Shown: positions 4,038 to 26,581 of the stretch, in pieces
Layout: each line of letters begins with the position of its first letter
Position numbering within the stretch: the stretch's first letter is position 1
Origin: a virus
Length of the DNA: 27,186 nt
Reading direction: 5' to 3' (one strand)
Virus record (IMG/VR): IMGVR_UViG_3300010370_000196
Span: 1-27,186 of that record
Notes under the pieces: model-generated
The model's input: only the letters and a program-made list of their open reading frames with translations
Told to the model about the DNA's origin: nothing
The model's database searches: none
Program-made: the position numbers and the translations under genes

Positions 4038-4199
4038 ATGACCAATATCCGCAGGGCCATGACCACAATCAGCCAAGCTACAGAAGATCGCATGGATGAG
4101 GAAGAGAAGCAGCGTCAGATCAAGCAGTTGCGCGAGGCTGAGCGGCAGCTCTTGCAGGGTGTGAACCTGAAGAGACTGCGCGAGATGGCCAATCTTTAA
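4038..4199 (+). CDS. Possible small coiled-coil protein on the opposite strand
   Basis: The frame encodes 53 residues, rich in Glu, Gln, Arg and Lys (EDRMDEEEKQRQIKQLREAERQLL) and strongly predictive of a helix. It runs rightward inside an otherwise leftward block and ends 4 bases inside the 3' end of the PP-loop gene. No strong ribosome-binding site precedes the ATG at 4038; the later ATG at 4059 has GCAGGG before it. The heptad-like charge pattern and the lack of a good leftward gene across 3962-4195 support it. The strand switch and the weak start argue against it. Confidence 0.35.
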   Translation: MTNIRRAMTTISQATEDRMDEEEKQRQIKQLREAERQLLQGVNLKRLREMANL

Positions 4200-5017
4200 T
4201 CCCCGCAGAAGCAGGCAATAGCCTCTTCTGTTGGGTCGAACAGCTCTGTCTGTTGGCCAGCAAACTTCAGCATCTCTGCGTAGCTGGGGCGGTCGTTCCT
4301 AAACCTGGCGCCGTCGCCGATGGCTTGGCCGCTTGACTGAATAGTCCCTTCCATCTTTGCCCACCATACTGCGCGCTGTGGTTCTTCCCGGATCAGGCTC
4401 AGGATTTGAGCTGCAGGCTTGAGCATGCATAGGTCGCAGTTGCCATGCATGGTCTTGCCGCCATGGTTGGGCAGGCGCAGGTCAAACGGGTGGCTTGCCC
4501 AAAACTCTCCTACGTCCTTGGCGGTAACGTTTGCCGTTACCAGCGGGGTGCGTTCGCGCGCGATCTTGGCCGCCCGGCGGCGCTCGTCTGCCCGGATGCC
4601 GACCCAGTCCATGTTCTCGTTGTGCTCCCAACCCAAGGACTTCAAGTACTTGTGGATAGGCCGAATCTTTAGTTCGGTGGTGCAGAACCTGGTGACCGGG
4701 TTGGGCAAATAGTTCTTGCGCATTACCAGCGCCTCGAATGGCTCGCCGCTCCGGCTGGCTGTCTCAAACGTTACGCGCTTGAAGCGGGGCTCCTCTGCGG
4801 TGTACTCGAGCCAGTGGATTTCTACGTTCCATTTCTGCTCGCAGTCGCGGACGAACTCCAGCGTGGCCGGGTGCTCCTTGCCTGTATTGGCAAAGCAGAC
4901 GATAGCCTCTGCCGGCAGGCCGTTGTTGGCCTCGAGGACGCGGTGCAGCATGTAGGCTGACGTGCGACCACCAGAGAAGGATATGACCGTTGGCTCGTCG
5001 ATGATGAAGGGGTTCAT
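4196..5017 (-). CDS. PP-loop ATPase, PAPS-reductase-like
   Basis: The 273-aa product has the adenine-nucleotide alpha-hydrolase PP-loop SFSGGRTSAYM (SGGRTS at 15-20), typical of phage proteins annotated as phosphoadenosine phosphosulfate reductase. Downstream lie FCTTELKIRP (C112), a GNCDLCMLKP pair (C194, C197) and an extreme C-terminal CFC (C269, C271). Real PAPS reductases end in a different ECGLH-type motif, and this cysteine pattern could instead hold an Fe-S cluster. Phage members are often suspected of acting in nucleic-acid modification (compare DndC of DNA phosphorothioation), but no function is proven. The ATG at 5017 overlaps the upstream TGA as ATGA. No sulfur partner such as a cysteine desulfurase is seen in the window. 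Confidence 0.8.
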   Translation of the reverse strand: MNPFIIDEPTVISFSGGRTSAYMLHRVLEANNGLPAEAIVCFANTGKEHPATLEFVRDCEQKWNVEIHWLEYTAEEPRFKRVTFETASRSGEPFEALVMRKNYLPNPVTRFCTTELKIRPIHKYLKSLGWEHNENMDWVGIRADERRRAAKIARERTPLVTANVTAKDVGEFWASHPFDLRLPNHGGKTMHGNCDLCMLKPAAQILSLIREEPQRAVWWAKMEGTIQSSGQAIGDGARFRNDRPSYAEMLKFAGQQTELFDPTEEAIACFCGD

Positions 5018-5301
5018 TGTTTCTCTTCCTGTAGGGCCTGAATGGTCTTGGCCAGCAAGTCCCATTCTCCCATCTTGTAGCGGGTATAGAAACCCTTTGT
5101 TCCTAGCCCATGCAGGCCGCTGTTGCCGCGGTGGTGCTCGGGGCACAGGGGGATGACCAGCCAGTCTGATGCCTTCTGCGCTCCGCCCGCCGCCTCGCGG
5201 GGGTGGTGAAGCTCAGGGGGCGTCCTGCCATATCCCAAGTGCCGACACAGAATGCAGCCCAGATCTGCGACTGCGTTCATGTGTCGCTTGATGGATGTCA
5301 T
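5014..5301 (-). CDS. HNH/Ref-like nuclease
   Basis: The 95-aa product has a CILCRH zinc pair, then PPELHHPRE and PLCPEHHRGNSGLHGLG, and a helical tail. This is the pattern of the Ref superfamily of HNH nucleases (the P1 Ref protein is a RecA-dependent nuclease), in a very short version. The family gives a role in DNA cleavage; the exact substrate is unknown. The ATG at 5301 was chosen because it overlaps the upstream stop as ATGA; a GTG two codons earlier is possible. It is one of three HNH-type proteins in the window, with those at 6722-7306 and 15121-15417. Confidence 0.75.
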   Translation of the reverse strand: MTSIKRHMNAVADLGCILCRHLGYGRTPPELHHPREAAGGAQKASDWLVIPLCPEHHRGNSGLHGLGTKGFYTRYKMGEWDLLAKTIQALQEEKQ

Positions 5302-7306: not shown

Positions 7307-7770
7307 GCCTGCCCCTTGGTTATCGCCCCGAGTGAGGGCCTGAGCTGCTTGGACACAACCCACCCCTAGCCCACTGGACGCGGGGTTGGCTGAAGATCAA
7401 AAGTCTGGGATCGCCCGTCGGTCGTTCCGTCGCCCTTTTGGTTGCGCTTACCTCTCAATGTTCCGGCGCAACTGGTCAGACATTTAGGCCCATTGTGAGA
7501 CCCCTCCTTAGCGCACTGACCGAGCTTGACCTGGATGCTGTCGTTACCCCGGATTACCCCAATCTCTCGACCTGGATCCGTTCTGGCGTTTTCATCAACA
7601 TCCAGCGCTATCTCCACCCGCGCTTGCCACGGCGGTAGTTCTTATGGCTCTCGCGCTGAACAAGAACGTTCGTGTCACCAAAAGGATCAGCGCAAAGCCG
7701 GTGCCAAAAGCAAAAACCCCGCAAATCACTCTGGTGGTCTTGGCTCTTGGCGGAGCAGCAGCAAGGCGAT
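7307..7770. other. 464-base stretch without a confident gene
   Basis: No frame here is convincing on either strand. On the minus strand, 7595-7792 (GTG start, 65 aa, one hydrophobic helix around VICGVFAFGTGFALILLV) is followed, with a 17-base overlap, by 7366-7611 (GTG start, 81 aa, Gly/Asn/Asp/Arg-rich); together they could be a small membrane protein and partner. On the plus strand, 7644-7820 (58 aa) is also hydrophobic in part, as complementary reading of the same DNA would give. Seven-base inverted arms at 7441-7447 and 7466-7472 (GTTGCGC and GCGCAAC) and six-base arms at 7474-7479 and 7516-7521 suggest RNA structure. The stretch may be the leader of the HNH gene. Confidence 0.4.
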
Positions 7771-7845
7771 TGATCCGAGGCCAAAGCCTCACCTGCTACC
7801 TGACAAGACCACCACAGTAATCTGCGGGGTTCTAACCTCGGATCA
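7771..7845 (-). ncRNA. Third long-stem RNA-like element, tRNA-sized
   Basis: The arms TGATCCGAGG (7771-7780) and CCTCGGATCA (7836-7845) are perfectly complementary over 10 bases. The pairing continues outward, past one bulged base, as GGCGA with TCGCC. Read on the minus strand, GGTTAG follows the left stem and GTGAGG lies 8 bases before the right stem, as in the two elements at 7907 and 8001. An internal hairpin CCGCAG-ATTA-CTGTGG can also form. A competing hairpin (GAGGC, loop CAAA, GCCTC) would disrupt the long stem, so two states are possible. Membership in the same family as the other two is tentative. Confidence 0.4.
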
Positions 7846-7888
7846 TCGCCGGTTGCCACACCGACAAGCGAAATGTACCACGGTTTTT

Positions 7889-7906
7889 AAAACCCTGCAA
7901 CAGGGT
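7889..7906 (-). terminator. Intrinsic terminator, leftward
   Basis: On the minus strand the hairpin ACCCTG-TTG-CAGGGT is followed directly by TTTT and then AAAAA. The 6-bp stem is short but GC-rich. It lies immediately downstream (leftward) of the two cloverleaf-like elements and would define their common 3' end. The neighbouring GGTTTTTAAAACC palindrome (7882-7894) partly overlaps it. Confidence 0.5.
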
Positions 7907-7991
7907 GCCTGGGCTGCTCACATAAAGCAGTGGCGGTTTGAACAACACTTTTGAAAAGTATTCCCCGGCGCTAACCCGGTTCAGCCCAGGC
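7907..7991 (-). ncRNA. tRNA-like cloverleaf element A (85 nt)
   Basis: The ends GCCTGGGCTG (7907-7916) and CAGCCCAGGC (7982-7991) are perfectly complementary. Inside lie an arm CCGG-CGCTAAC-CCGG (7965-7979, 7-base loop), a hairpin ACTTT-TGA-AAAGT (7947-7959) and a conserved block GCTCACATAAAGCAGTG (7916-7932) that can form a short arm. Element B (8001-8076) keeps the 17-base block, GTTTGAA and a 13-base loop/stem block at matching places, while its closing stem is entirely different in sequence but still pairs. Such covariation indicates a structured RNA. No canonical T-loop or clear anticodon arm is visible, so it is not a standard tRNA. The minus strand is preferred from the flanking gene direction and the downstream terminator. 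Confidence 0.6.
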
Positions 7992-8000
7992 AAAAAAGAT

Positions 8001-8076
8001 ATCCAAGCGGCTCACATAAAGCAGTGTGACTGTTTGAATTCAGAGCAACGGCGCTAACCCGTTGGACCGCCTGGAT
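8001..8076 (-). ncRNA. tRNA-like cloverleaf element B (76 nt)
   Basis: The ends ATCCAAGCGG (8001-8010) and CCGCCTGGAT (8067-8076) pair with one mismatch. The internal arm AACGG-CGCTAAC-CCGTT (8047-8063) is a perfect 5-bp stem with the same 7-base loop as element A but with changed, compensated stem bases. A second arm TCACA-TAAAGCAG-TGTGA (8012-8029) is perfect, and a weak CTG/CAG middle arm surrounds GTTTGAATT. The element is 9 bases shorter than A, all from the middle/variable part, which mimics the length difference between short- and long-variable-arm tRNAs. On the minus strand it is followed by ATC and TTTTTT. It begins just downstream of the gene at 8086-8292. Confidence 0.6.
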
Positions 8077-8085
8077 CTAAAAATT

Positions 8086-8292
8086 CTATCGCTCGTCCAG
8101 CCATGCATCCAACTGCTCGTGCGCCCAAGTCCTTACGGCATCAGAGGGAATATCCCCCTCGAGCAACATCTCGAAGCGATTCAGGCAGCTCGTCACCTTG
8201 GCCGTCCCGATATCCGCCGGCCATGGCTCGACGTCCTGGGTCCAATTGACCTGCAAGAATGGGTACTTGCTAAACAGTATTCCTGTGAGCAT
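8086..8292 (-). CDS. 68-aa phage protein, function unknown
   Basis: The product starts MLTGILFSKYPFLQVNWTQDVEPW and ends in an amphipathic acidic helix (SDAVRTWAHEQLDAWLDER). CTGGAG lies about 10 bases before the ATG at 8292, within the end of the upstream gene (23-base overlap). The mix of a beta-like front and a helical tail is ordinary for small phage proteins. It is the last gene before the RNA-like elements and may share their transcript. Confidence 0.7.
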   Translation of the reverse strand: MLTGILFSKYPFLQVNWTQDVEPWPADIGTAKVTSCLNRFEMLLEGDIPSDAVRTWAHEQLDAWLDER

Positions 8293-9729: not shown

Positions 9730-9857
9730 GCATAGAAGCAATGAAACAGGCGCTGGCCTTTGTTGAACAAAACACCTACGGAGGTGATGACGTAACAACT
9801 CTTATGAACTCCCTACGCCAAGCAAGTGAAAGACTGCAAATAAGGAGCCATGAATGA
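9726..9857 (+). CDS. 43-aa phage protein with EAMKQAL N-terminus
   Basis: The start codon overlaps the preceding TGA (ATGA) with AAGGGG upstream. The product, MSIEAMKQALAFVEQNTYGG and 23 more residues, carries the same N-terminal helix as the leftward protein at 5525-5878 (IEVMKQALEALE), so the two genes are shuffled relatives of one module. It ends SHE, and its last codon overlaps the start of the DpdA-like gene at 9854. Function is unknown. Confidence 0.7.
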   Translation: MSIEAMKQALAFVEQNTYGGDDVTTLMNSLRQASERLQIRSHE

Positions 9858-10591
9858 TTCACTATCACGGACTCCCAATAACCCCGGCAACCTCGGCGCA
9901 CAAAGCAATTGATGCTGGTCACGCATTTGTTTCATTTGCACATTCTGATCAACTGATGATTGCCATTGAGGTTTGCCAATCCTTTGCTTTGGATAATGGA
10001 GCATTCTCAGCCTGGAAAAGTGGCAAGCCAGTTGAAGATTGGACAGAGTTTTACGATTGGGCGCTAAACATTAAAAAAATTCCGTCCTGTGATTTTGCTG
10101 TGATTCCAGACGTTATTGATGGCACAGAGGCTGACAATGATGCCTTGCTAAAAGACTGTCCATTTCCGACATGGTTTGGCGCTCCGGTTTGGCATTTGCA
10201 TGAAAGCATAGAAAGACTGGAACAATTGGCGAACACCTACGTTCGGGTTTGCATAGGCAGTTCTGGCGACTATTCACAGGTCGGCACAGCAAATTGGTGG
10301 TCTAGGATGGGTCAGGCTATGAGGGTAATTTGTGACGACATGGGTCGTCCAGTCTGCAAGCTACATGGACTTAGGATGTTAGATCCTACGGTGTTCTCAA
10401 AGTTCCCATTTGCGTCAGCCGACAGCACAAATATCGGTAGAAATATCGGTATTGACGCACATTGGAGGGTTGGGAACTATCTGCCTCCGACCAAAGAAAT
10501 GCGTGCTCAAGTCATGCGCTCAAGGATCGAGGCTCATAACGCCCCAGCAGTTTGGGGATTCCACATGGTTGAACAGGAGACATTGCTGTGA
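9854..10591 (+). CDS. dpdA: DpdA-like transglycosylase (TGT superfamily), putative
   Basis: The 245-aa protein looks like a compact TIM barrel with conserved loops at strand ends: FALDNGAFSAW (44-54), CDFAVIPDVIDGT (79-91), APVWHLHES, VCIGSSGDY (132-140), LHGLRML (170-176) and ASADSTNIGRN (187-197). I recognise this as the phage DpdA-type branch of tRNA-guanine transglycosylases. In that branch the enzyme exchanges guanine in DNA for a 7-deazaguanine such as preQ0 and so protects DNA from restriction. The CxCxxC zinc site of classical TGT is absent, as far as I can see. D47, D85 and D190 are candidate catalytic residues. The next gene, coupled by GTGA, is a probable preQ0 transporter, which strongly supports the assignment. 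Base composition is more AT-rich than the surroundings. Confidence 0.65.
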   Translation: MIHYHGLPITPATSAHKAIDAGHAFVSFAHSDQLMIAIEVCQSFALDNGAFSAWKSGKPVEDWTEFYDWALNIKKIPSCDFAVIPDVIDGTEADNDALLKDCPFPTWFGAPVWHLHESIERLEQLANTYVRVCIGSSGDYSQVGTANWWSRMGQAMRVICDDMGRPVCKLHGLRMLDPTVFSKFPFASADSTNIGRNIGIDAHWRVGNYLPPTKEMRAQVMRSRIEAHNAPAVWGFHMVEQETLL

Positions 10592-15124: not shown

Positions 15125-15417
15125 ACTACCGCAACTCCAAGCTCACCGAGGCCGTGCGCCAGCTACCCTGCCAGCAGTGTGGCATTCAGGATGGCACGGT
15201 GGTAGCCGCGCACTCAAACCAACTAAGGGACGGCAAGGGTAAGGGCATCAAGGCCCACGATTACAGGATCGCGGCTCTATGCTATCGGTGCCATGCAGAC
15301 CTGGATCAGGGCAGCAAGATGAGCAAGGAAGAGCGTAAGGAAGTATGGGAAGAGGCTCACCGGGGGACTATAGGTGAGCTCTTCTCTCGCGGTCTTATTG
15401 ACGTTGTAAAGCCTTGA
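15121..15417 (+). CDS. YbcO-like (DUF1364-type) HNH nuclease
   Basis: The 98-aa product has LPCQQCGIQDGTVVAAHSNQ, then GKGKGIKAHDYRIAALCYRC and HADLDQG. This C-x2-C, AHSN, GKG-GIKA-D, C-x2-C, LDQG order is the signature of YbcO/DUF1364 phage nucleases of the lambda nin-like region, which are HNH-type enzymes linked to recombination. The start is a TTG overlapping the previous stop (TTGA at 15121-15124). It ends the rightward operon, and its last 23 bases overlap the convergent giant gene, with no terminator between. Confidence 0.85.
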   Translation: MNYRNSKLTEAVRQLPCQQCGIQDGTVVAAHSNQLRDGKGKGIKAHDYRIAALCYRCHADLDQGSKMSKEERKEVWEEAHRGTIGELFSRGLIDVVKP

Positions 15418-18400
15418 TACGTTCATTGAAGTTATTCATCATCCGTTGCTTTTGTTCTTTGTAGCGCTCGATCTGGGCCTTGGTCTGCTCAGTCTCCGGG
15501 CGCTTTTGTATTTCCTTGATCGTCTTGTTGATCTTGGAAATCTGATTCTCCAGGTTGTTGGCGTTCTGGATGAATCGGTACTCGGGATTATCCTTCATGA
15601 ACTCTGAGAGATTCTCACGCTTCTCCCGCATGCGCTTCATCTCACCCTCGAGCTCAGCCAGCATCGTGACGTTCTTGTAGAACTTGTCCGACACAGCTGA
15701 CGGGGTCTCCGTCTCACCATAAGCCTTGCCCAGGATCGGCACCTTGTACGGCGGCGTCTCTTCACCCTCGACCTTGGCCTTGACGAAGCCGGCAGCTTTG
15801 GCAACCTCACGACCCAGGCCACCCACGTACTGGGAGAACACATAGTCAATGTCGTCAGCGGTCGGGCTGTATGCACCGATGCCGTACTTACCACCACCCG
15901 TCAGGTAGTTGATACCGTAGGCCAAACCCTGGCTGATGGCAGATGCATTGTCCCGGCTACGCTCCCATCCAGGCGATGGGTTGGTAGCACGGTTCTCTTT
16001 GGAGATCGGTCGGCCAAAAGCATCCTTGTTCTCAGCGATAGCAACAAACGGATCTACCAGGGTAGGCGACAGGGTCTGGATCAGGCCGCTGGAACCTAGC
16101 GGGTTGAAGGCATCCAGCACAGCAGAGGCAATGCTCAGGACCGTCTTGGGCAAATCCCGCTTACCGGTCATAGCCCCGGCCTGGGTCAGCGCATACTCGG
16201 TCACCAGGCGTGCAACGTTGGGGAACACGTTTAGACCCAGTGGCATGGGAATGATTGCGTAGCCCTGGCCAAACGGATTGGGGATGATCAGGTTCTTGTT
16301 CTTCAGGAACTCAGGGGGCTCGTCTGCGTCAAAGCCTGCGAAGGCCAGCAACGCAGCTTGCATTGCCCCAATCATCATGCCGCCGGCGATAACTTTTTTA
16401 CCACCAGGAGTCAGTCTAACTTTGCCGTTTTCATCACGCTTAAAGATTAACTCCGCCATACGGGCAGAACCCTGTACAGAGGCGTTCAGGAAAGCATAGA
16501 AGGCGTTGGCATTGGTGGTCCATGCACCCTTGCGGTTGAAGTTAACCGTTAGGTTCTTAGCCAGCTCAGCAGCCCGGTCCTCGGAGAGGCCAGACTCCAG
16601 GGCAGCTTTGAACGCTGACAGACGCACAGCGTTTTCCATGGCGTCGTTGTAGTCAGACAGCCAGTCAGCCACAGCCTGGGCAGCACGGCGCACATTGGAA
16701 CGGTCCAGACGGGCCATCTCACGTTGGACCAGGGTTGCCTTGTCCTTGGCGCGGGTGAACTGCTCGCGGTAACCAGTCTGGCCACCAGCGTTAGCGAAGC
16801 GCTCGTACAGGTCGATCCACTCCTTAGCCTCGGCATCCTTCGGGGTCTTGCCGCGCAGGTCACGGTAGATAGCTTTGAGCGCAGGGATAGCCCCGGCCAC
16901 AACTTCCATGCGCTTGTCTGCGATCGGAGTGCCAGTCAGGTTAACGGCTGCAGACTCCACGTCACGCACAAAGTTCCAGGCACCGAACACAGGGTTGAAC
17001 TGGGTGTTCATCGCTGCGATCAGGCGGGTCAGCTCAGCAACCGTGTCCAGCCCGTTCTCAAGCTGGTTGGCGTCCAGGTTCTTCAGAGCCTTGACCATAC
17101 GTTTGGCACGCTCATCAGCCGGGTTAAAGATGATGAACCGGTCTTTGCCATTGATACGAACCGGGAACACGTTCTCTGCATTAAGAACGTTGGGATTGAT
17201 TCGGTATTGAACCAGTCCTGTTTTCTTATCGATGCTAGGACTGCGTGGTTGCTGGAAGATGTTCTCTGCCGTGTCAGGATCCAAGCCCATAGCCTGGAGC
17301 TCGGCGATCAGCTTCTTCTTGTTCTTGACCGCATCAGGATTGATGGGCATCCAGAACTCAGGGTTGGGAGCCTGCAGAGCCATGCCGTACAGAGCACGAC
17401 CCACGCGGGCTTTCTCAGACCTGACGATCGCCATCTCACGCTGGAGGGCAATGTTGTTTAGGATATCCACAACCGTCTTCAGCGAGCCGGTAGCCGTACG
17501 GGAGAAGTCACCCTTGATGGCAAAGCCCTTACCCATGCCAAAGCTCGGGTTCACAAAGTCCAGCTCGTTGGGATCGCGCTTGAGCGGGACGTAGTGCTTG
17601 AACATGTCACGCCAAGAATCGATACGCTCCTGGGTCTCAAGCCCGTTGGCCACCAGCATGTCCTGGGTTCCTTCGACAAACTTGTCGATGTCCTTGGCCA
17701 GCTCTTCGTACTTGGCTTTCTCTTCCTTGCTCAGGCCGTTGAGATAAGCAATTGCATCATCCGTGGGGATGCCAGAACCAGCGTCAGGCATGCCAGGGTT
17801 ACGGGCCGCGATCAGGTCGTTGTATTCCTGGGCGTGGCGGTTCTGCAGGTAGAACTCAAACTCGTCAACCTTGACGCCCATCTTGTCCATCTTCTCGATG
17901 AACGGACGGAAGTCACGCTTGAGGAAATCCATGGTCTGCTTTGAAACACGACCGTGGTACAGCGTCTCTTTCAGGTAAGCATCAAAGCGGTCAGCAATCT
18001 CGCCAATGCCTTTGACCACAGCCTGCACAACACGCTTGGTATCAACGTGCTTGTCCTGCCAACGGTATGCCCAGTCGTCCATCTTGGACTTCTCAGGAGA
18101 ATCCCACACAGACAGAGGAGCAGGCTTGCCCTTGTAGTTGCGGCGCGTGTTCTCATCCAGGTTGAGCATGCCCATCACGCTGGCTTCAACGTAGTCATTC
18201 AGGGCCGCTTTGGTAAAACGTTCACCCTTAGACGTCATGATGTCGTTGAAGATCCGATGCACAACGTACTGGTTGTCGAACCCGAACATGTACTTCAGAC
18301 CTTCAAACAGGCGCTTAGCGGCCAGGACGAATTTGTCCCAGCCAGTACCCAGCTTGCGTGCCATCAGCTTCTCAGCATTGACAGCCCAGTACTCAGACGG

Positions 18401-21400
18401 GTTGATGTACTGGTAATAGTCGTAGCTAGGCATCACGCTCATGGCGAAGTTGTATAGCTCAATCGATGGTTTGTTATAGAACTCCAGGATGGCCGCAAAA
18501 TAAAGTTGAGCCTTGGGAGACTTCTCTTTCTTAATGGCTTTGCCTAGCTTCTCAGACCAGTCCATGATCAGGTCTGCCACAGCATCAGCAGTCATCATCT
18601 GCTCGAGGCCGTGGGTAATCTCGTGGCGGATGGTCACAGGATCTTGGACCCCGGTGGTTCCTTTATACAGGCGAACCAAACGAGCCATGGCAAAGAACTG
18701 TCCAGCCGCATCACTGAATTCAGCGCCCTGTTTGACAGACAGGTTCAGCCCTTCCAGAACAAAGGGGAACTTCTCGTACATCGTCTTGATGGCGGCGTAC
18801 ACGTCATCGCTGATGTTGCCTTCGTTCCACTGCTTGGTGGCCTGGGCAAAGAAGTTCTTGGCGTCCGTGCGCTTGACCTTGCTTGCAGCGATCTCGTCCT
18901 TGAGCTGGCTAGCAACATCGTCAAGCGTATTGATTGCCTCTTGTTCATCCAGGCCGGCTTGGCCTTTCTTAAACTTACGCAGAATCATGCCGCGCTTCTG
19001 ACGCATACTCTGGTACTTGCGGATCAACGTCTCACGGTCAGCAACAAAGTTGGCCGTTGTGTTGAGACTCTCACGCTCAACATCAGGCTGGACGTTAGCC
19101 AGAGGCATCTTGGGAGCAAACATCTCCCGAGCTTCGTCCTTGTGGTTGTAAGCGATCAGAGTCTCGCCCCGGTCAGACAAAAGGTACTGGATAGCTTCGT
19201 TGGCTTTATCCTGGTCATAGACCGTCGTACGCATGATCTGGCCAGACTTGTACAAGTCACCAGTAATGTCGGTCAGGCCCTTGTCCAGATAGAAAGAACC
19301 GCCCTCACGCTTGGAGCTGGGTGTAACAAAGCGGTACTCAGTCCCGCCCATGTAGGCAATTCTCAGATTCCCATCCGGCGTGCTGACCTCAGCATTACGG
19401 CCAAATGTGTTGAAGAAGTCCATTACCGCGGCAAGGTTCTTCAGGCGCACATCTGCGTTCTTCTGAGCTTTCTCAAAGTCAAACGTGCGGGGCATCAAGA
19501 TACCCTGAGCCGTGGTGCCATCATCCTTGGTATAGGTTTTGATATGGCCCATGTTGTTGACAGCAGCAAACCCAGCCAAGATGTTGCCGGTCACCATCCA
19601 ACGATTTTCGCGGCGCACAGTTGCACCCTTGTCGAACAGATCCAGCATGGGGATGTATTCGAACTTGTCGGTCTCTTGGTTGAACCAAGGCGTCTCGAGC
19701 TCTCGCTTCAGCTGGTACACGCTACCAATCTGAGAGAACGGCATCGAGGTGGACTTGGATTCCCCGTCAGCCAGGGCAATCGTCATCTGCCAATCAGAGC
19801 CGGCCGCAGGGTTCTTGGTCTTCTGCTTGTTCTGGATGTCGGTCACAACGCCCTTGACCAGCATGCCCTTGGAGTTCTTGGCCACCACTGGAGTACCGAT
19901 CGGAAACTCAGTCAGGACCGTCTTGATGTGGGTGTACTGGGCGTTGATCTGGCCCTTTATAGATTCGATCTTGACCCGGTCTGGCTCAGCCTCGGCTTCC
20001 ATCTTCTCGATAATAGACTTGCCATATGCTTTGGTGCGGTCGCTCAGGTCGTGCCACATACGAGAAGACTTCTCGCTGGGTTTCTCCCCGTTCAGGCTGT
20101 TTTGAACCTGGCGCTGAACCTCTTCCTTGGAGTAAGGCTTGACCGTGCGCTTGACGTCCACCTTCTCCATGATGGCAGGCTTGGCAAAGATAGACGGATC
20201 ACCCTTGTCCTCGGTGATGGGCACAGAAGCAAGGGTCTTGGCGTCCAGGTCAGCAGCCTTGGATTCCAGCTTGTTGCTGCCCATGCTATCTTCGCGCTCA
20301 ATCAGATCGTTGTAGCGCTCAACCAGATCCTTGTATACCTCTTCCTGCTGCTTGATCGGCAGGATTGGGATATACCCAGTCAGCTTGCGAATGTCTTCTT
20401 CGCCGGCCTCGGACGGATTGTCTGCAATCTCCAGGATCTTCTTGCCACCCAAAGCCTCGTAAACCTCTGGGTTGTCACGCAGGTATTCCTGGGCAACCTG
20501 ACCACCATACTCGTTCATGAAGTCAACGGTGCCCTCAGCTGTAACAGCGGACTTGCGTGAAGCCGTGGTGTTGGCGTTCAGGCTGGCCATTTTCTTGAGT
20601 AGGACGGCGGCAGGGCGCATCTCAGCAGGGATGTCAGCCATCATCTGAGAGTACGCAGGCGGGATTACCTGGCCAGTACGCAGAGGACGGCCCAGCATCT
20701 GCATGTGAATGTCGATGTTACCCTCAGCCTGGACAATGATCATGTGACGCTTACGCTGATCCTTGAACTTGCTAGAGGCGTGCAACGACAGTCCGGTAGA
20801 ACCAGCTTGGTTCAGGATAATTACGTCAACTGCGCCGCTGTTAAAAGCCTTGACGGCATTCACACGTTGCTTGATGTTGGCAGAGCGGCTAGTCAGAATG
20901 GGACGGCCACTCTCGTAGTTCAGGGTCATAGTGCGACCCGTGATTTCTTCCGTCTTATAGCCTGCCTTACGCAGTTCTGCATGCATGTAGTCAATCGGAG
21001 ACATTGGTGCAGAGCCAAAGCCAGCATTCTCAATAAACTTTTTGATATCGTTGTATTGCTGAGTCAGTGCAGGCCCTAGATCATTGTCGGTTAAACGATA
21101 TTCTTCTTTTGCACCATTGGGTCGTTTGATTGTGACCTTGCGCTGTTTTTCCAAGTAACGAATGTACAAATCTTTGAATGAAAGATCCACAGGATCTCCA
21201 ATATTCAAATTCATTTCTTTGGCATATCCTTGAAGGAAAGATCCCATGGTGTTAGACACGGTCAATATAACCTTCTCGTTTGCTTTCAACCGCCCGATAG
21301 CGTGACGCACAGAGTCCTGAACCTTCAGAGATAACAGCATCTGGTCAATCAAGGAGTGCATGTTTGATCCAAAGTTTGCACTTTGAACCTGGGTCTTTTC

Positions 21401-24400
21401 CCCTTCCATGCCTAACTTGGCACCCTGCTTGTCATATTCTTTTTGCAAACTCTTTACAACCACTTCCTTGGCGCGTGAGAACGCCAGGATGTCGCGCATA
21501 GACGTGGCCATATTCTCGGCTGTCTCTTTGTTTACATTGGTCTGCTGCGTGTTGTAAGCAACGCCAGCAAATGTACGTTCGCGGCGGATATACTGGCCAA
21601 CCTGAGTCAGCATACGGGCCACGGTCTGCTGCATCGGAATTCCACCAGCCTTGATGGCTTCTGCCAGATCAGAAATGTTATCCACAGCCAGGCTCATGTC
21701 CGTGCTGGAATACAAATCCATCACATCAGGGCGCTTGGCATACGTGGCTGATGAGAAGAAAGTGCCGTAAGCGTTTTGCACCAGGTTACGCACGAATGCT
21801 GCACGCCCGGTAGCCAAACTTTCTCCAGCTTTAGCCTTTTCTCTTTGTTCTTTAGTGCGAGCTTGGGTTTCTCCACTACCGCCAGCGTTGTGGCTCTCGT
21901 CAAAGATCAAGTAGTTTTGAGCGCCAAATTGCTTGATAAAACGCTGACGTTCAGTTTCTTTCCCCTTGACGGTCTGCAGCTGTTTGTACGTGGTGAAGAT
22001 CACCTTGTAGTCGCCCAAACTTTCCTTCTGACTCATGGCCTTCATGAGCCCATCCATGGCAGAAACATTAGATTTGGCAGACTTCAGCGTCAGGTTGTTC
22101 TCAGTAATTTCTTCACCCTTCTTGCGAATCAGGGTGTAAGGAATGGCTTCTCCGTTGTTGGTAATAAAAATCTTGGGATTGGCAGTGTCAAGCCCCAGCT
22201 CTTTCGTCATACCAATATCGTCCAGGTCCCGGATCATGTCCGAGTACAGGTTGGGCGCTTCGGTTACAAAGATTGGAATCTTGTCATGGACCAGGGCATA
22301 ACGGATCATGGCGGCAACAACACGACCCTTGCCAACGCCGGTCTGGTCGCCAATGATGAAGCCTTTGCCGGCCTCTGCGTTGTAGATGGCCAGGGCTATA
22401 GCATCAACCTGTTCCGCCGAGAACAGCTCACGCACCGTCTCAGGATCCATGTCCAAAGACTCTGCAACGTAGTTATCCAGATCTCCGATCGAGCTCTCAA
22501 TCTTGGCTAGAGAGTTCTCGATTGAATCAGCCATAGCCTTAGGAACCAGGGTTCCAATAGAGCTGGCTTTAGAGTGGGGATAGTAAGCAACCTGGTTTTC
22601 TGTCTCGGTCTCCAGGCCACGGCGCTCTGCTAATCCAGACTGGACACGCTCACCTGAGACAACGCTAACTCCACCCAGCTTGGGAAGTCCACGTCCTTCA
22701 GCACCTGCTTCGCGTTCTCGTTTGGCCCGCTCACCTGCGCCGGCCACTGGTTCTCCCTCTGCTGCACGTTTAGGGACGTTAGCAGGTTTAGGTTGTTGCT
22801 CACCAGCGCCTCGCCCACTTGGTTCGCGTTGTCCACGCCCGGTAGGTCCAGCCTCCGACACGCCTCGTTCGCCGCCTCCAACGGGTTCTCTTCCTTCAGC
22901 ACCAACCACATCACTCGGTTGCTCAACGCCTCGACCCACTCGTTCTGGCTCAGCTTCCCGCTCGGCACTAACACCGACGTCAGCTCCGGCGGGGCCACGA
23001 TCTTCTCGGGATACCATGGGTTCATTTAGCTTCTCCTTCAGTTGTTCGTATGTGGTGATGAGCTCTGGCAGGTCAGCTGCAGGCAGATCGCGAGATGACT
23101 TGCCAACCCCATCAATCACGATCACATCAACGGGATAGGTGGTGCCCTGCTTGGCGTACATGTTGCCGCCGGCAGTAAAGTGATCCACAACGTTGTACAG
23201 GTTGTACAGCTCGTAATAGAAGTCACGCTTGGCACGGCCTCTGTAGCCCTCGCGGCGTCCCTCTTCGGTCGTTGCCTGGACACCGCCCACAATCAGTACA
23301 GCACGGCCGTTTTCCTTCATCCCAACCAAGGACTTCAGGACAATGTCGTGGTCGATGTTGCTGATCTCACCAGCCTTGCCAAACGGCGGGTTGGCAATCA
23401 CAACGTCAAAGGCATTGTTTTCAATGTCCATCTCCAGAGCATTCTCTTGAGAGATGTCCGCCCCAGACATGATGCTTTCCAGCATACGAACCCGGTCAAC
23501 ATCAAGCTCGTTTGCTCGCACCTTGTCCGGGTTAGCCGCGATCAACAGCATGCCGTTGCCTGCAGTAGGCTCGAGTACGCTGGTTTTGTTGGTGATGCCG
23601 GCCAGCTCAGACGCCACATAGGCCAGGGGGGCGGGCGTGGAGTAAGCCTGGTTGGCTACGCTGGTTGAGCTACGCACAGAAAGGTTTGGCTGGCGACTGT
23701 ACAGGTCAACCAGATCGTCATAGATTTCCTGGGTAGATTTCTTATTAAACCTGCCCTCTTCGATGATGTTGCGAGCGGCAATGATGACGCCTGCTTCAAT
23801 CGCTTCGTCAGCGTCCTTTGCGGCTTTGGTCCCTGGCTCAATCTTCTGGCCAGTCATTTTGCTGATCTGATCTCTGGCCTCAACGATTGTCTTGAAGCTA
23901 GCTCCTTCTGAGAGCTTGCCTCCAATCTTTCCCGCCATTTTTGCTTTGTTAGAAAACTGTGTAGCTTGTGCTACGCCGGCAGGCTCTTCAGCTTCTGCCA
24001 GACCTTCCATAGACTCAACAGCGATGACTTCTTTCTTGGAGCTAGCGCCTTGATCCTGGTACTTGCCGGCCATGCCAATGTAGGCACCCTGCAGGTGATC
24101 CAGAGTGATCTGGTCAGCAGCTTCGTCACCCAGCTTGGAACGGATCGTGTCCATCACAAACCGGGCAGCTTCCTTGAATTTGATCTTTCCAAGGCGGAAG
24201 GCTGCATCCATAAGCCGGGTCAGGATCGGCATGAGCTTTTGCTCGTCCTCAGGGACAATGTTCATGCGACCAGACTTGGTCAGCAACATGGACAGATCGC
24301 CCAGGGCGTCTTCTAGATCTTGCTTAGCCTTGGCTTTCTCGTCGGCTTCGGCCGGCTTGGCAGGCGTTACAGGGGCGGCAGGAGTGACGGCAGGTGCCTT

Positions 24401-26581
24401 TGCGGCAGGCTGCAACACGTTTTCACGAATCATCGCCTCGGCTTCTTCGCCGGACGGTTGTCTTGCACTGAGCCCGGGTGGCTTAATTTTGGTAAGCAAA
24501 TCACGGCCAGATGGCGTCAAGATTCCTCTGCCGTTAATCATGCCACTCGCTAACAACACATCCTTGACAGGGCCATCTTTCAACGACTCGGTTGAAGCAT
24601 CTTCCAGACCCATGTAGACCTGGATTGGTGTCGGGGTTACTGCTGCAGGCGGGGTAGGTGCAACCTTGGCTACTTCAATTCGGCGCTCTTCAAATGCACC
24701 ATCGGCAGACTTAACGGTAATTTGATTTCCGGTATGGCTAACAGCGGTAACAATCCATGTGCGGCCATTAAGTTCAACTTTTTGCCCTGGTTTGTATTCA
24801 CCAGCCGGGGCAATAATATTCTCACTTTTTATTTCTGGAAGTTCATTCCACCAGTCTTCAGCAGCCGCTGGCTTGCGCTGTTGTTCTAGAAGTGTTTTTG
24901 CGTATTCTTGTTGTTCTGGTGTTTTTAGGATTAAAGCGTTTGACGCGCCAGCAATTTTTTGCGGATAACTAAGTTCATTTTTATTCAATCTTGCGCCAGG
25001 AATCTTAGCAATAGCGTTAATTGCATCTCTAACTGTAGATGCCCGCGTAATACCGATTTCTGAGTCTGCAAATGCGCCGCCTAGCAGCTGATCCAACGTG
25101 TTTGTTGGCGCAGCAGTAGGCGTTACTGCAGGCGCGGTAGGAGGAGTAGTTGGTTGCTCAGGGGCAGGCGTTACCGCAGGCTCAGCCGCTGCAACAGGGG
25201 GCTGTGGAGTTCGTGTAACTTGTTTCACTTCTGTCCCAAAAGTACTCACTTCTGGGGGTGTAACAGGCCCTGGTGTTACCTTTGGTTCTACGGGTTTACC
25301 AGTAGAAACAGGCGGTTGTGCAGCAGGTCTTTCCTCTGTTTGAGCCAGGATCTCCCTCAGCATTTCGGAAGTATCTTGGGCCTCTGACGGGGCTGCTTGT
25401 GCCATGGGTTCGGCAGGCGGAGCAGGCGGGGCCGCAGAAGGCTCTGTGGGAGGCGCAACAGCCTCAGGAGGGGTAACGGTAGGTGCAGGCTGTTTAAGCG
25501 CCCCAGGAAGGCCAGGAGTACGCAGGGAGCGTGCTGCCAAGGGAACTTCAACAGCCGCCCCTCCAAGCTCGCCCAACATCTCCAGAGCAACATCTTCCAG
25601 ATCCACCTTGCCATAGGCCGCGAGCTGGCCACCGGCTTCAGAGATGCCACCGCCGGCAATGTCGATGCCAGCACCACCCAGGCCACGGCCAACCTTTTGG
25701 GCAAGCGTGCGGCTAGCCATGATCTCGTTAGCCCGGCTGGCCACTTGAGCCAGATCAGCGCCAGCACCAAGCTCAGTACGAGCTGCCTTGATAGCTGCGT
25801 TCTTAGCCCCGCCAGCAAACCTACCGCCGGCAAGCGTAGTAGCCGCGTCGATAGCGGCAGTTGTAGCGCCTTTGGTACGGGCGTCAGAGATGGCTTGTTG
25901 CACGAACGCCTTGTCCTGCATCAGGGCCTGGACGTTACGCTCGGTGGGTTCTAGCCCACGTTTTTGAAGCTCTTTACCAATCAAGCCAATGAACTCAGAG
26001 CCAATCTCAACAGGGGCTTGGCCAGTGAATGCGCCGCCGATAGCTCCAATACCAGCACCAATGGCCGCACCGCCGGGCCCACCCAGCGCGCCAACAGCAG
26101 CACCGCCCTTACCGCCAGCCAGCATGCCGACGATAGAGGGAACCATGTTTGCCGCCTGCTCAGCGGTCATGTACATCAAGCCCTTGGGATTGGTGATGGC
26201 CTGACGCCCCACCTCATAGAGCATCTCGCCAATAGCCTTGGAGCCCTGCATGAACCCTTGAGCTTCTTCCCAGGCTTTGCCCTCTTCTTTGAAGGCACCC
26301 TTGATGTCTTTCAGCTCTCTAGGCTCATTGGCTGTGGGCGTGGCCAACTGCTCGGCAATCACGCGAGACTTGGCCGCAACATCACCACCAGAGATGACGG
26401 CCGGGGCAACCTCAGCTGACGTTAGGGCTTGCTTGCCGCCCTTGACTAAGAGCTCTCCTACGTTGGATAAGAAGCCTGGCTCCTTGACTAAAGTACCACC
26501 GTACTGTTTGGCCAAAGCATCCAGATTCTCTGGCTTTGTTTCGACCCCACCGAACTGTTTTGCCAGAGCGTCGTAGTCCAT
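15395..26581 (-). CDS. Giant DarB-like polyvalent protein (methylase-helicase-protease-LPD)
   Basis: The 3728-aa protein is a chain of domains. Residues 1-30 hold two DALAKQ(F/Y)GG repeats. About 145-190 is a Gly/Ala-rich hydrophobic stretch, and 355-495 a Pro/Ala linker. About 985-1090 is an N6-adenine methylase (EPTAGNGMLL at 1004, NPPF at 1064). About 1189-1330 is an Arg/Gly/Glu-rich linker. About 1345-1990 is a Strawberry-notch/SNF2-like helicase (GDQTGVGKG at 1411, DESH at 1561, QMLGRPLRTGQ at 1961). A zincin HEITH lies at 2653-2657 with a possible third ligand E2730. An LPD38-like region spans about 3150-3650 with a hydrophobic helix near 3395-3413, followed by a terminal coiled coil. 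P1 DarB and Bcep22-type giant proteins are packaged and enter the cell with the DNA to block restriction; the same role is inferred here. TAATG overlaps the upstream gene. Confidence 0.9.
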   Translation of the reverse strand: MDYDALAKQFGGVETKPENLDALAKQYGGTLVKEPGFLSNVGELLVKGGKQALTSAEVAPAVISGGDVAAKSRVIAEQLATPTANEPRELKDIKGAFKEEGKAWEEAQGFMQGSKAIGEMLYEVGRQAITNPKGLMYMTAEQAANMVPSIVGMLAGGKGGAAVGALGGPGGAAIGAGIGAIGGAFTGQAPVEIGSEFIGLIGKELQKRGLEPTERNVQALMQDKAFVQQAISDARTKGATTAAIDAATTLAGGRFAGGAKNAAIKAARTELGAGADLAQVASRANEIMASRTLAQKVGRGLGGAGIDIAGGGISEAGGQLAAYGKVDLEDVALEMLGELGGAAVEVPLAARSLRTPGLPGALKQPAPTVTPPEAVAPPTEPSAAPPAPPAEPMAQAAPSEAQDTSEMLREILAQTEERPAAQPPVSTGKPVEPKVTPGPVTPPEVSTFGTEVKQVTRTPQPPVAAAEPAVTPAPEQPTTPPTAPAVTPTAAPTNTLDQLLGGAFADSEIGITRASTVRDAINAIAKIPGARLNKNELSYPQKIAGASNALILKTPEQQEYAKTLLEQQRKPAAAEDWWNELPEIKSENIIAPAGEYKPGQKVELNGRTWIVTAVSHTGNQITVKSADGAFEERRIEVAKVAPTPPAAVTPTPIQVYMGLEDASTESLKDGPVKDVLLASGMINGRGILTPSGRDLLTKIKPPGLSARQPSGEEAEAMIRENVLQPAAKAPAVTPAAPVTPAKPAEADEKAKAKQDLEDALGDLSMLLTKSGRMNIVPEDEQKLMPILTRLMDAAFRLGKIKFKEAARFVMDTIRSKLGDEAADQITLDHLQGAYIGMAGKYQDQGASSKKEVIAVESMEGLAEAEEPAGVAQATQFSNKAKMAGKIGGKLSEGASFKTIVEARDQISKMTGQKIEPGTKAAKDADEAIEAGVIIAARNIIEEGRFNKKSTQEIYDDLVDLYSRQPNLSVRSSTSVANQAYSTPAPLAYVASELAGITNKTSVLEPTAGNGMLLIAANPDKVRANELDVDRVRMLESIMSGADISQENALEMDIENNAFDVVIANPPFGKAGEISNIDHDIVLKSLVGMKENGRAVLIVGGVQATTEEGRREGYRGRAKRDFYYELYNLYNVVDHFTAGGNMYAKQGTTYPVDVIVIDGVGKSSRDLPAADLPELITTYEQLKEKLNEPMVSREDRGPAGADVGVSAEREAEPERVGRGVEQPSDVVGAEGREPVGGGERGVSEAGPTGRGQREPSGRGAGEQQPKPANVPKRAAEGEPVAGAGERAKREREAGAEGRGLPKLGGVSVVSGERVQSGLAERRGLETETENQVAYYPHSKASSIGTLVPKAMADSIENSLAKIESSIGDLDNYVAESLDMDPETVRELFSAEQVDAIALAIYNAEAGKGFIIGDQTGVGKGRVVAAMIRYALVHDKIPIFVTEAPNLYSDMIRDLDDIGMTKELGLDTANPKIFITNNGEAIPYTLIRKKGEEITENNLTLKSAKSNVSAMDGLMKAMSQKESLGDYKVIFTTYKQLQTVKGKETERQRFIKQFGAQNYLIFDESHNAGGSGETQARTKEQREKAKAGESLATGRAAFVRNLVQNAYGTFFSSATYAKRPDVMDLYSSTDMSLAVDNISDLAEAIKAGGIPMQQTVARMLTQVGQYIRRERTFAGVAYNTQQTNVNKETAENMATSMRDILAFSRAKEVVVKSLQKEYDKQGAKLGMEGEKTQVQSANFGSNMHSLIDQMLLSLKVQDSVRHAIGRLKANEKVILTVSNTMGSFLQGYAKEMNLNIGDPVDLSFKDLYIRYLEKQRKVTIKRPNGAKEEYRLTDNDLGPALTQQYNDIKKFIENAGFGSAPMSPIDYMHAELRKAGYKTEEITGRTMTLNYESGRPILTSRSANIKQRVNAVKAFNSGAVDVIILNQAGSTGLSLHASSKFKDQRKRHMIIVQAEGNIDIHMQMLGRPLRTGQVIPPAYSQMMADIPAEMRPAAVLLKKMASLNANTTASRKSAVTAEGTVDFMNEYGGQVAQEYLRDNPEVYEALGGKKILEIADNPSEAGEEDIRKLTGYIPILPIKQQEEVYKDLVERYNDLIEREDSMGSNKLESKAADLDAKTLASVPITEDKGDPSIFAKPAIMEKVDVKRTVKPYSKEEVQRQVQNSLNGEKPSEKSSRMWHDLSDRTKAYGKSIIEKMEAEAEPDRVKIESIKGQINAQYTHIKTVLTEFPIGTPVVAKNSKGMLVKGVVTDIQNKQKTKNPAAGSDWQMTIALADGESKSTSMPFSQIGSVYQLKRELETPWFNQETDKFEYIPMLDLFDKGATVRRENRWMVTGNILAGFAAVNNMGHIKTYTKDDGTTAQGILMPRTFDFEKAQKNADVRLKNLAAVMDFFNTFGRNAEVSTPDGNLRIAYMGGTEYRFVTPSSKREGGSFYLDKGLTDITGDLYKSGQIMRTTVYDQDKANEAIQYLLSDRGETLIAYNHKDEAREMFAPKMPLANVQPDVERESLNTTANFVADRETLIRKYQSMRQKRGMILRKFKKGQAGLDEQEAINTLDDVASQLKDEIAASKVKRTDAKNFFAQATKQWNEGNISDDVYAAIKTMYEKFPFVLEGLNLSVKQGAEFSDAAGQFFAMARLVRLYKGTTGVQDPVTIRHEITHGLEQMMTADAVADLIMDWSEKLGKAIKKEKSPKAQLYFAAILEFYNKPSIELYNFAMSVMPSYDYYQYINPSEYWAVNAEKLMARKLGTGWDKFVLAAKRLFEGLKYMFGFDNQYVVHRIFNDIMTSKGERFTKAALNDYVEASVMGMLNLDENTRRNYKGKPAPLSVWDSPEKSKMDDWAYRWQDKHVDTKRVVQAVVKGIGEIADRFDAYLKETLYHGRVSKQTMDFLKRDFRPFIEKMDKMGVKVDEFEFYLQNRHAQEYNDLIAARNPGMPDAGSGIPTDDAIAYLNGLSKEEKAKYEELAKDIDKFVEGTQDMLVANGLETQERIDSWRDMFKHYVPLKRDPNELDFVNPSFGMGKGFAIKGDFSRTATGSLKTVVDILNNIALQREMAIVRSEKARVGRALYGMALQAPNPEFWMPINPDAVKNKKKLIAELQAMGLDPDTAENIFQQPRSPSIDKKTGLVQYRINPNVLNAENVFPVRINGKDRFIIFNPADERAKRMVKALKNLDANQLENGLDTVAELTRLIAAMNTQFNPVFGAWNFVRDVESAAVNLTGTPIADKRMEVVAGAIPALKAIYRDLRGKTPKDAEAKEWIDLYERFANAGGQTGYREQFTRAKDKATLVQREMARLDRSNVRRAAQAVADWLSDYNDAMENAVRLSAFKAALESGLSEDRAAELAKNLTVNFNRKGAWTTNANAFYAFLNASVQGSARMAELIFKRDENGKVRLTPGGKKVIAGGMMIGAMQAALLAFAGFDADEPPEFLKNKNLIIPNPFGQGYAIIPMPLGLNVFPNVARLVTEYALTQAGAMTGKRDLPKTVLSIASAVLDAFNPLGSSGLIQTLSPTLVDPFVAIAENKDAFGRPISKENRATNPSPGWERSRDNASAISQGLAYGINYLTGGGKYGIGAYSPTADDIDYVFSQYVGGLGREVAKAAGFVKAKVEGEETPPYKVPILGKAYGETETPSAVSDKFYKNVTMLAELEGEMKRMREKRENLSEFMKDNPEYRFIQNANNLENQISKINKTIKEIQKRPETEQTKAQIERYKEQKQRMMNNFNERIKALQRQ
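22630..23025 (-). CDS. Candidate nested gene inside the giant gene (131 aa)
   Basis: In the +1 frame of the giant gene, an ATG at 23025 preceded by AAGGAG at a 7-base spacing opens a 131-aa frame starting MNPWYPEKIVAPPELTSVL. Its composition is that of a folded or helical protein: four Trp, many Asn, and balanced hydrophobics (ALSNRVMWLVLKEENPLEAA). The giant protein's own reading here is low-complexity Arg/Gly/Glu. Overprinted genes typically sit in such disordered linkers. Against it: the region is about 60% GC, so stops are rare in shadow frames, and the G-ending codons follow from the host frame. I recognise no homologue. Confidence 0.4.
   Translation of the reverse strand: MNPWYPEKIVAPPELTSVLVPSGKLSQNEWVEALSNRVMWLVLKEENPLEAANEACRRLDLPGVDNANQVGEALVSNNLNLLTSLNVQQRENQWPAQVSGPNENAKQVLKDVDFPSWVELALSQVSVSSLD

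Follow-up and report, generated by a model that had tools for sequence, protein, structure and literature searches.

Tandem elements in a virus contig as members of a predicted, widespread family of tRNA-sized phage RNAs

Two elements in the window

The DNA analysed here (the window) is a virus record of 27,186 bases. A single reading frame of 3,728 amino acids (15395-26581, minus strand) takes up 41% of it, and queuine tRNA-ribosyltransferase-like and PAPS-reductase-like proteins are also encoded (9854-10591, plus strand, and 4196-5146, minus strand, respectively). Two structured elements, here called copy A and copy B, lie next to each other and are assigned to the minus strand (Table 1). 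An earlier note on this DNA had described them as sharing repeats, and the repeats GCTCACATAAAGCAGTG (family D2, spacing 94) and CGGCGCTAACCCG (D5) were indeed found to be exact on the plus strand. The closing stems had been said to be completely different in sequence yet to pair in both copies, and the second arm to carry compensated changes; both descriptions agree with the stems listed in Table 1. As to the lengths given in the note, 76 nt is correct for copy B, whereas the 85 nt given for copy A had to be changed to about 87 nt. The family model R1, described below, matched copy B at 8078-7998 with 70.5 bits (E 9.9e-16) and copy A at 7993-7904 with 65.2 bits (E 2.7e-14). Copy A belongs to a subset of the family in which P2 has 4 bp and the middle arm contains a UUGUUCAA segment.

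Directly 3' of copy A there is a candidate small RNA that does not belong to the family. Its two long stems are interleaved in the order A5-B5-A3-B3, which makes a pseudoknot, and the first stem (A) is changed on both sides among the window and the related loci L003 and L007.

Table 1. Coordinates of the two element copies and of the adjacent candidate small RNA in the window
Feature	Position	Strand	Description	Basis
Putative sigma-70 promoter of copy B	8083..8112	minus	-35 TTGGAT 8112-8107, 18 nt, -10 TAGAAT 8088-8083	
Element copy B	8001..8076	minus	76 nt, RNA 5' end at 8076	
Copy B P1	8076-8067 with 8010-8001	minus		sequence, coordinates, fold
Copy B P2	within 8065-8046	minus	CAACGG/CCGTTG around loop GUUAGCG	
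Copy B P3	8026-8013	minus	CAC-UGCUUUAU-GUG	
Element copy A	about 7906-7992	minus	87 nt, variant with 4-bp P2	
Copy A P1	7992-7982 with 7916-7906	minus	TGCCTGGGCTG (7906-7916) / CAGCCCAGGCA (7982-7992)	sequence, coordinates, fold
Copy A P2	within 7979-7965	minus	CCGG-GUUAGCG-CCGG	
Copy A extra hairpin	7960-7945	minus		
Copy A P3	3' side of copy A	minus	CAC-UGCUUUAU-GUG	
Adjacent candidate small RNA	7710..7877	minus	directly 3' of copy A, outside the family	inverted repeat I1, sequence
Its promoter	-35 7900-7895, -10 7877-7872	minus	TTGCAG, TACATT	
Its hairpin	7865-7848	minus		
Its interleaved stems	7850-7836 with 7780-7765; 7831-7804 with 7742-7715	minus	followed by a U-run	

Fold and distribution of the family

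The structure was described from 82 elements aligned in the orientation of the RNA, with 10 pairs in P1, six in P2 and three in P3, the ends of P1 being placed by a helix-scoring script. Judged from this comparison, it is essentially certain that the predicted fold consists of a closing helix (P1) that encloses a hairpin (P2) whose 7-nt loop reads GUUAGCG, a variable arm, and a further hairpin (P3) of 3 bp and an 8-nt loop, UGCUUYAU. Paired cells made up 87% in the alignment, 14 pairs of P1 and P2 showed double-sided (compensatory) changes, and the covariation score was 0.557, compared to 0.06-0.18 with slid partners. P1 is 6-18 bp long, free in sequence and not fixed at 7 bp. The linker between P1 and P2 varies, and a fixed 2-nt linker as in tRNA was dropped. 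The P2 loop was GUUAGCG in 121 of 131 elements; the P3 loop was UGCUUYAU in all 131, as the search patterns demanded. Pairing between AGCG of the P2 loop and UGCU of the P3 loop (3-4 bp), which are invariant in both loops, is a possible tertiary contact.

P3 at first seemed invariant because the seed pattern fixed it. Among the 131 elements the middle pair of P3 was A-U in 81, G-C in 39 and C-G in 11 and was never unpaired, a distribution partly imposed by the seed patterns. CGC/GCG in place of CAC/GUG was seen in L199 and in the second copy of L057. When the whole viral collection was searched, the CGC/GCG pattern was found in 103 contigs, nearly all of them confirmed by the model, and the CCC/GGG pattern in 16, all with the P2 and P1 context. 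The mixed combinations occurred in the same collection four times (wobble, CGC/GUG) and twice (mismatch, CAC/GCG), and all six were unrelated sequence without the fold. These combination searches do not depend on the model and are, as an argument from sequence, the strongest single proof of the predicted fold.

The folding z-score was -3.2 for both copies on the minus strand, and -2.5 and -2.3 on the plus strand. In P2 the alignment contained 29 G-U and 3 A-C cells on the RNA strand, and tRNAs near elements were on the same strand as the element in 13 of 13 cases. Taking these counts and the direction of the tRNAs together, the RNA strand is the minus strand. An RNA on the plus strand, as the elements had first been drawn, was excluded by the wobble pairs, the tRNA direction and the promoters, all of which favour the minus strand.

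The narrow pattern CATAAAGCAGTG..GTTTGAA, taken from the two window copies, was present in eight viral contigs, some of them clearly different phages. The broader pattern GCTCAYATRAAGCAGTG retrieved at least 120 viral contigs, nearly all of which also have the second arm CGGCGCTAACCCG and closing-stem strands that pair. The model built from the 82-element alignment detected additional copies that had escaped the seed pattern: second copies in L057, L077 and L081 and a copy in a Burkholderiales prophage (L199). Contigs carried one or two copies, most of them one, in a collection that consists of contigs, mostly fragments, and gives copy number and gene context only in part. Another pattern, CAGCGCC..CTGCTTYATG, gave mostly chance matches and was used as a specificity control: of 98 of its loci that were scanned, only L307 and L375 gave hits.

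In 257 Gb of bacterial and archaeal genomes the broader pattern gave only 39 stretches, six of which contained an element, and in the genomes of one bacterial order a match was found in 2 of 399. Since these matches are so few, the element is essentially a phage or prophage feature. Three of the six elements (L143, L151 and L155) came from Burkholderiales-type genomes. The other three (L133, L140 and L142) were one identical copy, present in genomes that bear the labels Aeriscardovia, Vreelandella and Clostridia, an indication that one phage has contaminated these genomes or is carried widely. To judge from the few copies in bacterial genomes and metagenome-assembled genomes, the hosts would seem to be mostly Beta- and Gammaproteobacteria.

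No match to the window was obtained with Rfam at the gathering score, and relaxing the threshold brought up a SAH-riboswitch only (14 bits, E 2.6). When the window and 32 related loci were scanned with Rfam 15, which includes the self-cleaving ribozymes, there was no credible match to the elements; the sole overlap with an element was sn2417 in L041, with an E value of 2.9, far below the gathering score. A self-cleaving ribozyme was considered, but no such model matched. Locus L041 also contains, about 370 nt 3' of an element, an int-alpA RNA (RF02996; 588-655, minus strand, 40 bits, above the gathering score); this is a separate RNA, and no element matched its model. In the Rfam scans the tRNA (RF00005) and tmRNA models matched only true tRNAs beside the elements, and ARAGORN found no tRNA in the window, in line with the statement of the earlier note that the elements are not a recognisable tRNA. 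The absence of a T-loop and of a clear anticodon arm noted there holds for the family, in which the loops are those given above and the middle arm is variable both in sequence and in length; with no model match, tRNA and tmRNA were discarded as identities of the element.

The elements of the window, L122, L058, L231, L267, L039 and L234 gave only short chance matches or matches to neighbouring genes in BLAST searches of reference phages. The family has perhaps been overlooked because its carriers are uncultivated. In open-access papers the conserved strings led to nothing but unrelated work. By these comparisons the elements constitute a new RNA family, absent from Rfam 15 and from the open-access papers searched.

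The check proposed in the note, a search for covarying copies in other genomes, thus turned out positive: the pattern from both copies led to more than 100 viral contigs with a complete element, which excludes a chance repeat. The proposal of an undescribed structured RNA family is upheld by covarying copies in more than 200 viral contigs, by strong, strand-specific covariation and by the lack of a tRNA, tmRNA or Rfam model match. On sequence grounds, both window elements are hereby shown to belong, as minus-strand copies, to a widespread family of phage RNAs. A covarying family with near-invariant loops in this many virus contigs points to an unrecognised RNA-based phage function.

Transcript ends, neighbouring genes and possible function

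The -10 hexamer of the putative copy B promoter begins 12 nt ahead of P1, which predicts that transcription starts on the first base of P1 (8076); L008 has the same arrangement. In a set of 120 non-redundant elements the -10 box started 12 or 13 nt before P1 in 20 (about one in six), whereas other offsets occurred 0-3 times each; the predicted transcription start of these elements is therefore the first base of P1. Most of the 120 elements have no promoter positioned in this way. At the other end, ACC directly followed P1 in 22 of 122 elements (18%), compared to a background of 1.5% (p 1e-17, a value inflated by relatedness), and in 16 of 98 distinct P1 strands. The ACC was often part of ACCA or ACCU, with ACCA in 9 of 122, and the enrichment was strongest near a promoter or a start codon. 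ACC is missing from most copies, including both window copies. It is shown (STATISTICALLY) that transcription of elements with their own promoter is predicted to begin exactly with P1, and that ACC after P1 is far above background.

Some of the neighbouring ORFs are unreliable. The genes before the element often code for helicases or Holliday-junction resolvases; those after it include genes for a head protein, a terminase small subunit, an acyl-carrier-like protein, an HNH nuclease and a primase, and many unknowns. In L032 and L253 the element belongs to a tRNA array and is separated from the preceding tRNA by 9 and 2 nt, respectively, and in L046 and L052 a tRNA-Met follows 9-10 nt after it.

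Taking into account the few copies, the unrelated neighbours, the membership in tRNA arrays and the defined ends, we tentatively favour the reading that the element is a small RNA gene made like a tRNA and probably acting in trans. One or two copies per contig and unrelated neighbouring genes are what makes it look like a gene rather than a site. The 5' end of P1 would be fixed either where transcription starts or where an upstream RNA is processed, and the 3' end would be the ACC tail. Trimming or binding would probably be carried out by the host tRNA-maturation machinery, with RNase P as the likeliest partner, and what is released would be a stable RNA of tRNA size, with a function in trans in the infected cell. 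In size and in its cloverleaf-like layout the element resembles a tRNA: the closing helix is followed at a short distance by a hairpin, and a second hairpin comes immediately ahead of the 3' strand of this helix. Further likenesses are its occurrence in tRNA arrays and the ACC(A) that follows the closing helix in some members, a few of which have a 7-bp P1 (L216, L237, L261, L268 and L299). In contrast to tRNA, P3 has only 3 bp and an 8-nt loop, P1 is not fixed at 7 bp, ACC is present in a minority, and tRNA model match, T-loop and conserved anticodon arm are all missing, which speaks against this reading, as does the absence of ACC from both window copies. Moreover, elements with their own promoter require no RNase P cut. 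The nearest parallel in setting, though not in sequence, is provided by T4 rnaC and rnaD (species 1 and 2), small phage RNAs annotated beside a tRNA cluster. They are longer (139 and 119 nt), and the model did not match them; its only match in the T4 tRNA region scored 7.6 bits and lay on the other strand.

The main rival, which we consider rather unlikely, is a cis-acting antiterminator like the put RNA of phage HK022: the nascent RNA would fold at the start of a transcription unit and bind RNA polymerase directly, so that later terminators are ignored. HK022 put suppresses termination through the zinc-binding domain of the RNA polymerase beta' subunit. Same-strand terminators were denser just upstream than downstream of the elements, and therefore the element tends to open a new unit. 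This fits an antiterminator, as do the frequent site between replication or recombination genes and the terminase small subunit or head genes, the independence from the gene that comes next, and the window element that precedes a terminator-like structure, itself ahead of an HNH gene. The enrichment of same-strand terminators downstream that antitermination would predict was, however, not clearly seen, and copies in the middle of tRNA arrays and tandem copies exist. Put is a phage RNA similar in size to the element; it needs no dedicated protein and is found at the beginning of an early transcript or close to it, putL being located just downstream of PL (PMC9378689), an arrangement into which the promoter-proximal elements would fit. 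The folds differ, since put consists of two stem-loops without an enclosing helix whereas the hairpins of the element are inside the closing helix, and model R1 run with filters off found no homologous copy in the HK022 genome (best 11.5 bits, E 0.7).

Still less probable is a cis-acting 5' leader that would protect the message by a helix flush with its 5' end, control translation of the next gene or sense a ligand as a riboswitch does. Such a leader would suit the prediction that the transcript begins exactly with P1, and a ribosome-binding site and start codon come closely after the element in 35 of 122 cases, an arrangement that also counts against the small RNA gene. Against a leader, the genes that follow are unrelated, and the association with genes of one pathway expected of a riboswitch was not seen among them; many copies have no start codon nearby or lie beside tRNAs; the conserved loops would be needless for simple protection; and there is as a rule one copy per contig. 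Integron attC and similar recombination sites of single-stranded DNA likewise combine conserved loops with variable stems, yet a DNA-level site (for recombination, packaging or replication) that folds as single-stranded DNA is very improbable, as G-U but not A-C is kept, on one strand only, promoters point into the element and the tRNAs are always on the same strand.

The layout, with a defined 5' end, an ACC tail and a location within tRNA arrays or at the beginning of a transcription unit, leaves a tRNA mimic, an RNA-only antiterminator and a general leader as options. Returning to the small RNA gene made like a tRNA, we would suggest, with somewhat greater reserve, that the family might be an undescribed class of tRNA-mimicking small RNA, with ends produced by the transcription start or by host tRNA-processing enzymes, which a large group of uncultivated, mostly aquatic phages would carry and which would act in trans on a host RNA-binding machine.

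Structured modules beside the elements

The element is often directly adjoined by a second structured module, a long stem (for example CCAACACGCATGGGGACTG / CAGTCCCCAGCCGTGTTGG) whose 3' strand overlaps P1 (L024, L039, L056, L088, L092, L122 and about 20 other loci); in L018, L020 and L099 the element is inside the long stem. Two further modules recur beside the element, a small-RNA-like unit with its own promoter and terminator (GAAGCCRYTTACACATGC .. GTAAGYGGCTTTTTT) and the conserved motif CGTACTCCGCACGWTAGCAAGCACC .. GGTGGCGCGGAAGA (L012, L058, L064, L065, L088, L092 and L122), and neither matches Rfam in the scanned loci. In a prophage of the Vreelandella rituensis genome, a 1.3-kb stretch between the terminase and portal genes (L202:2569-3896) holds an element together with repeated stem-like units such as GGAGCCTGCGCGAGCAGGGCCTTCAAG.
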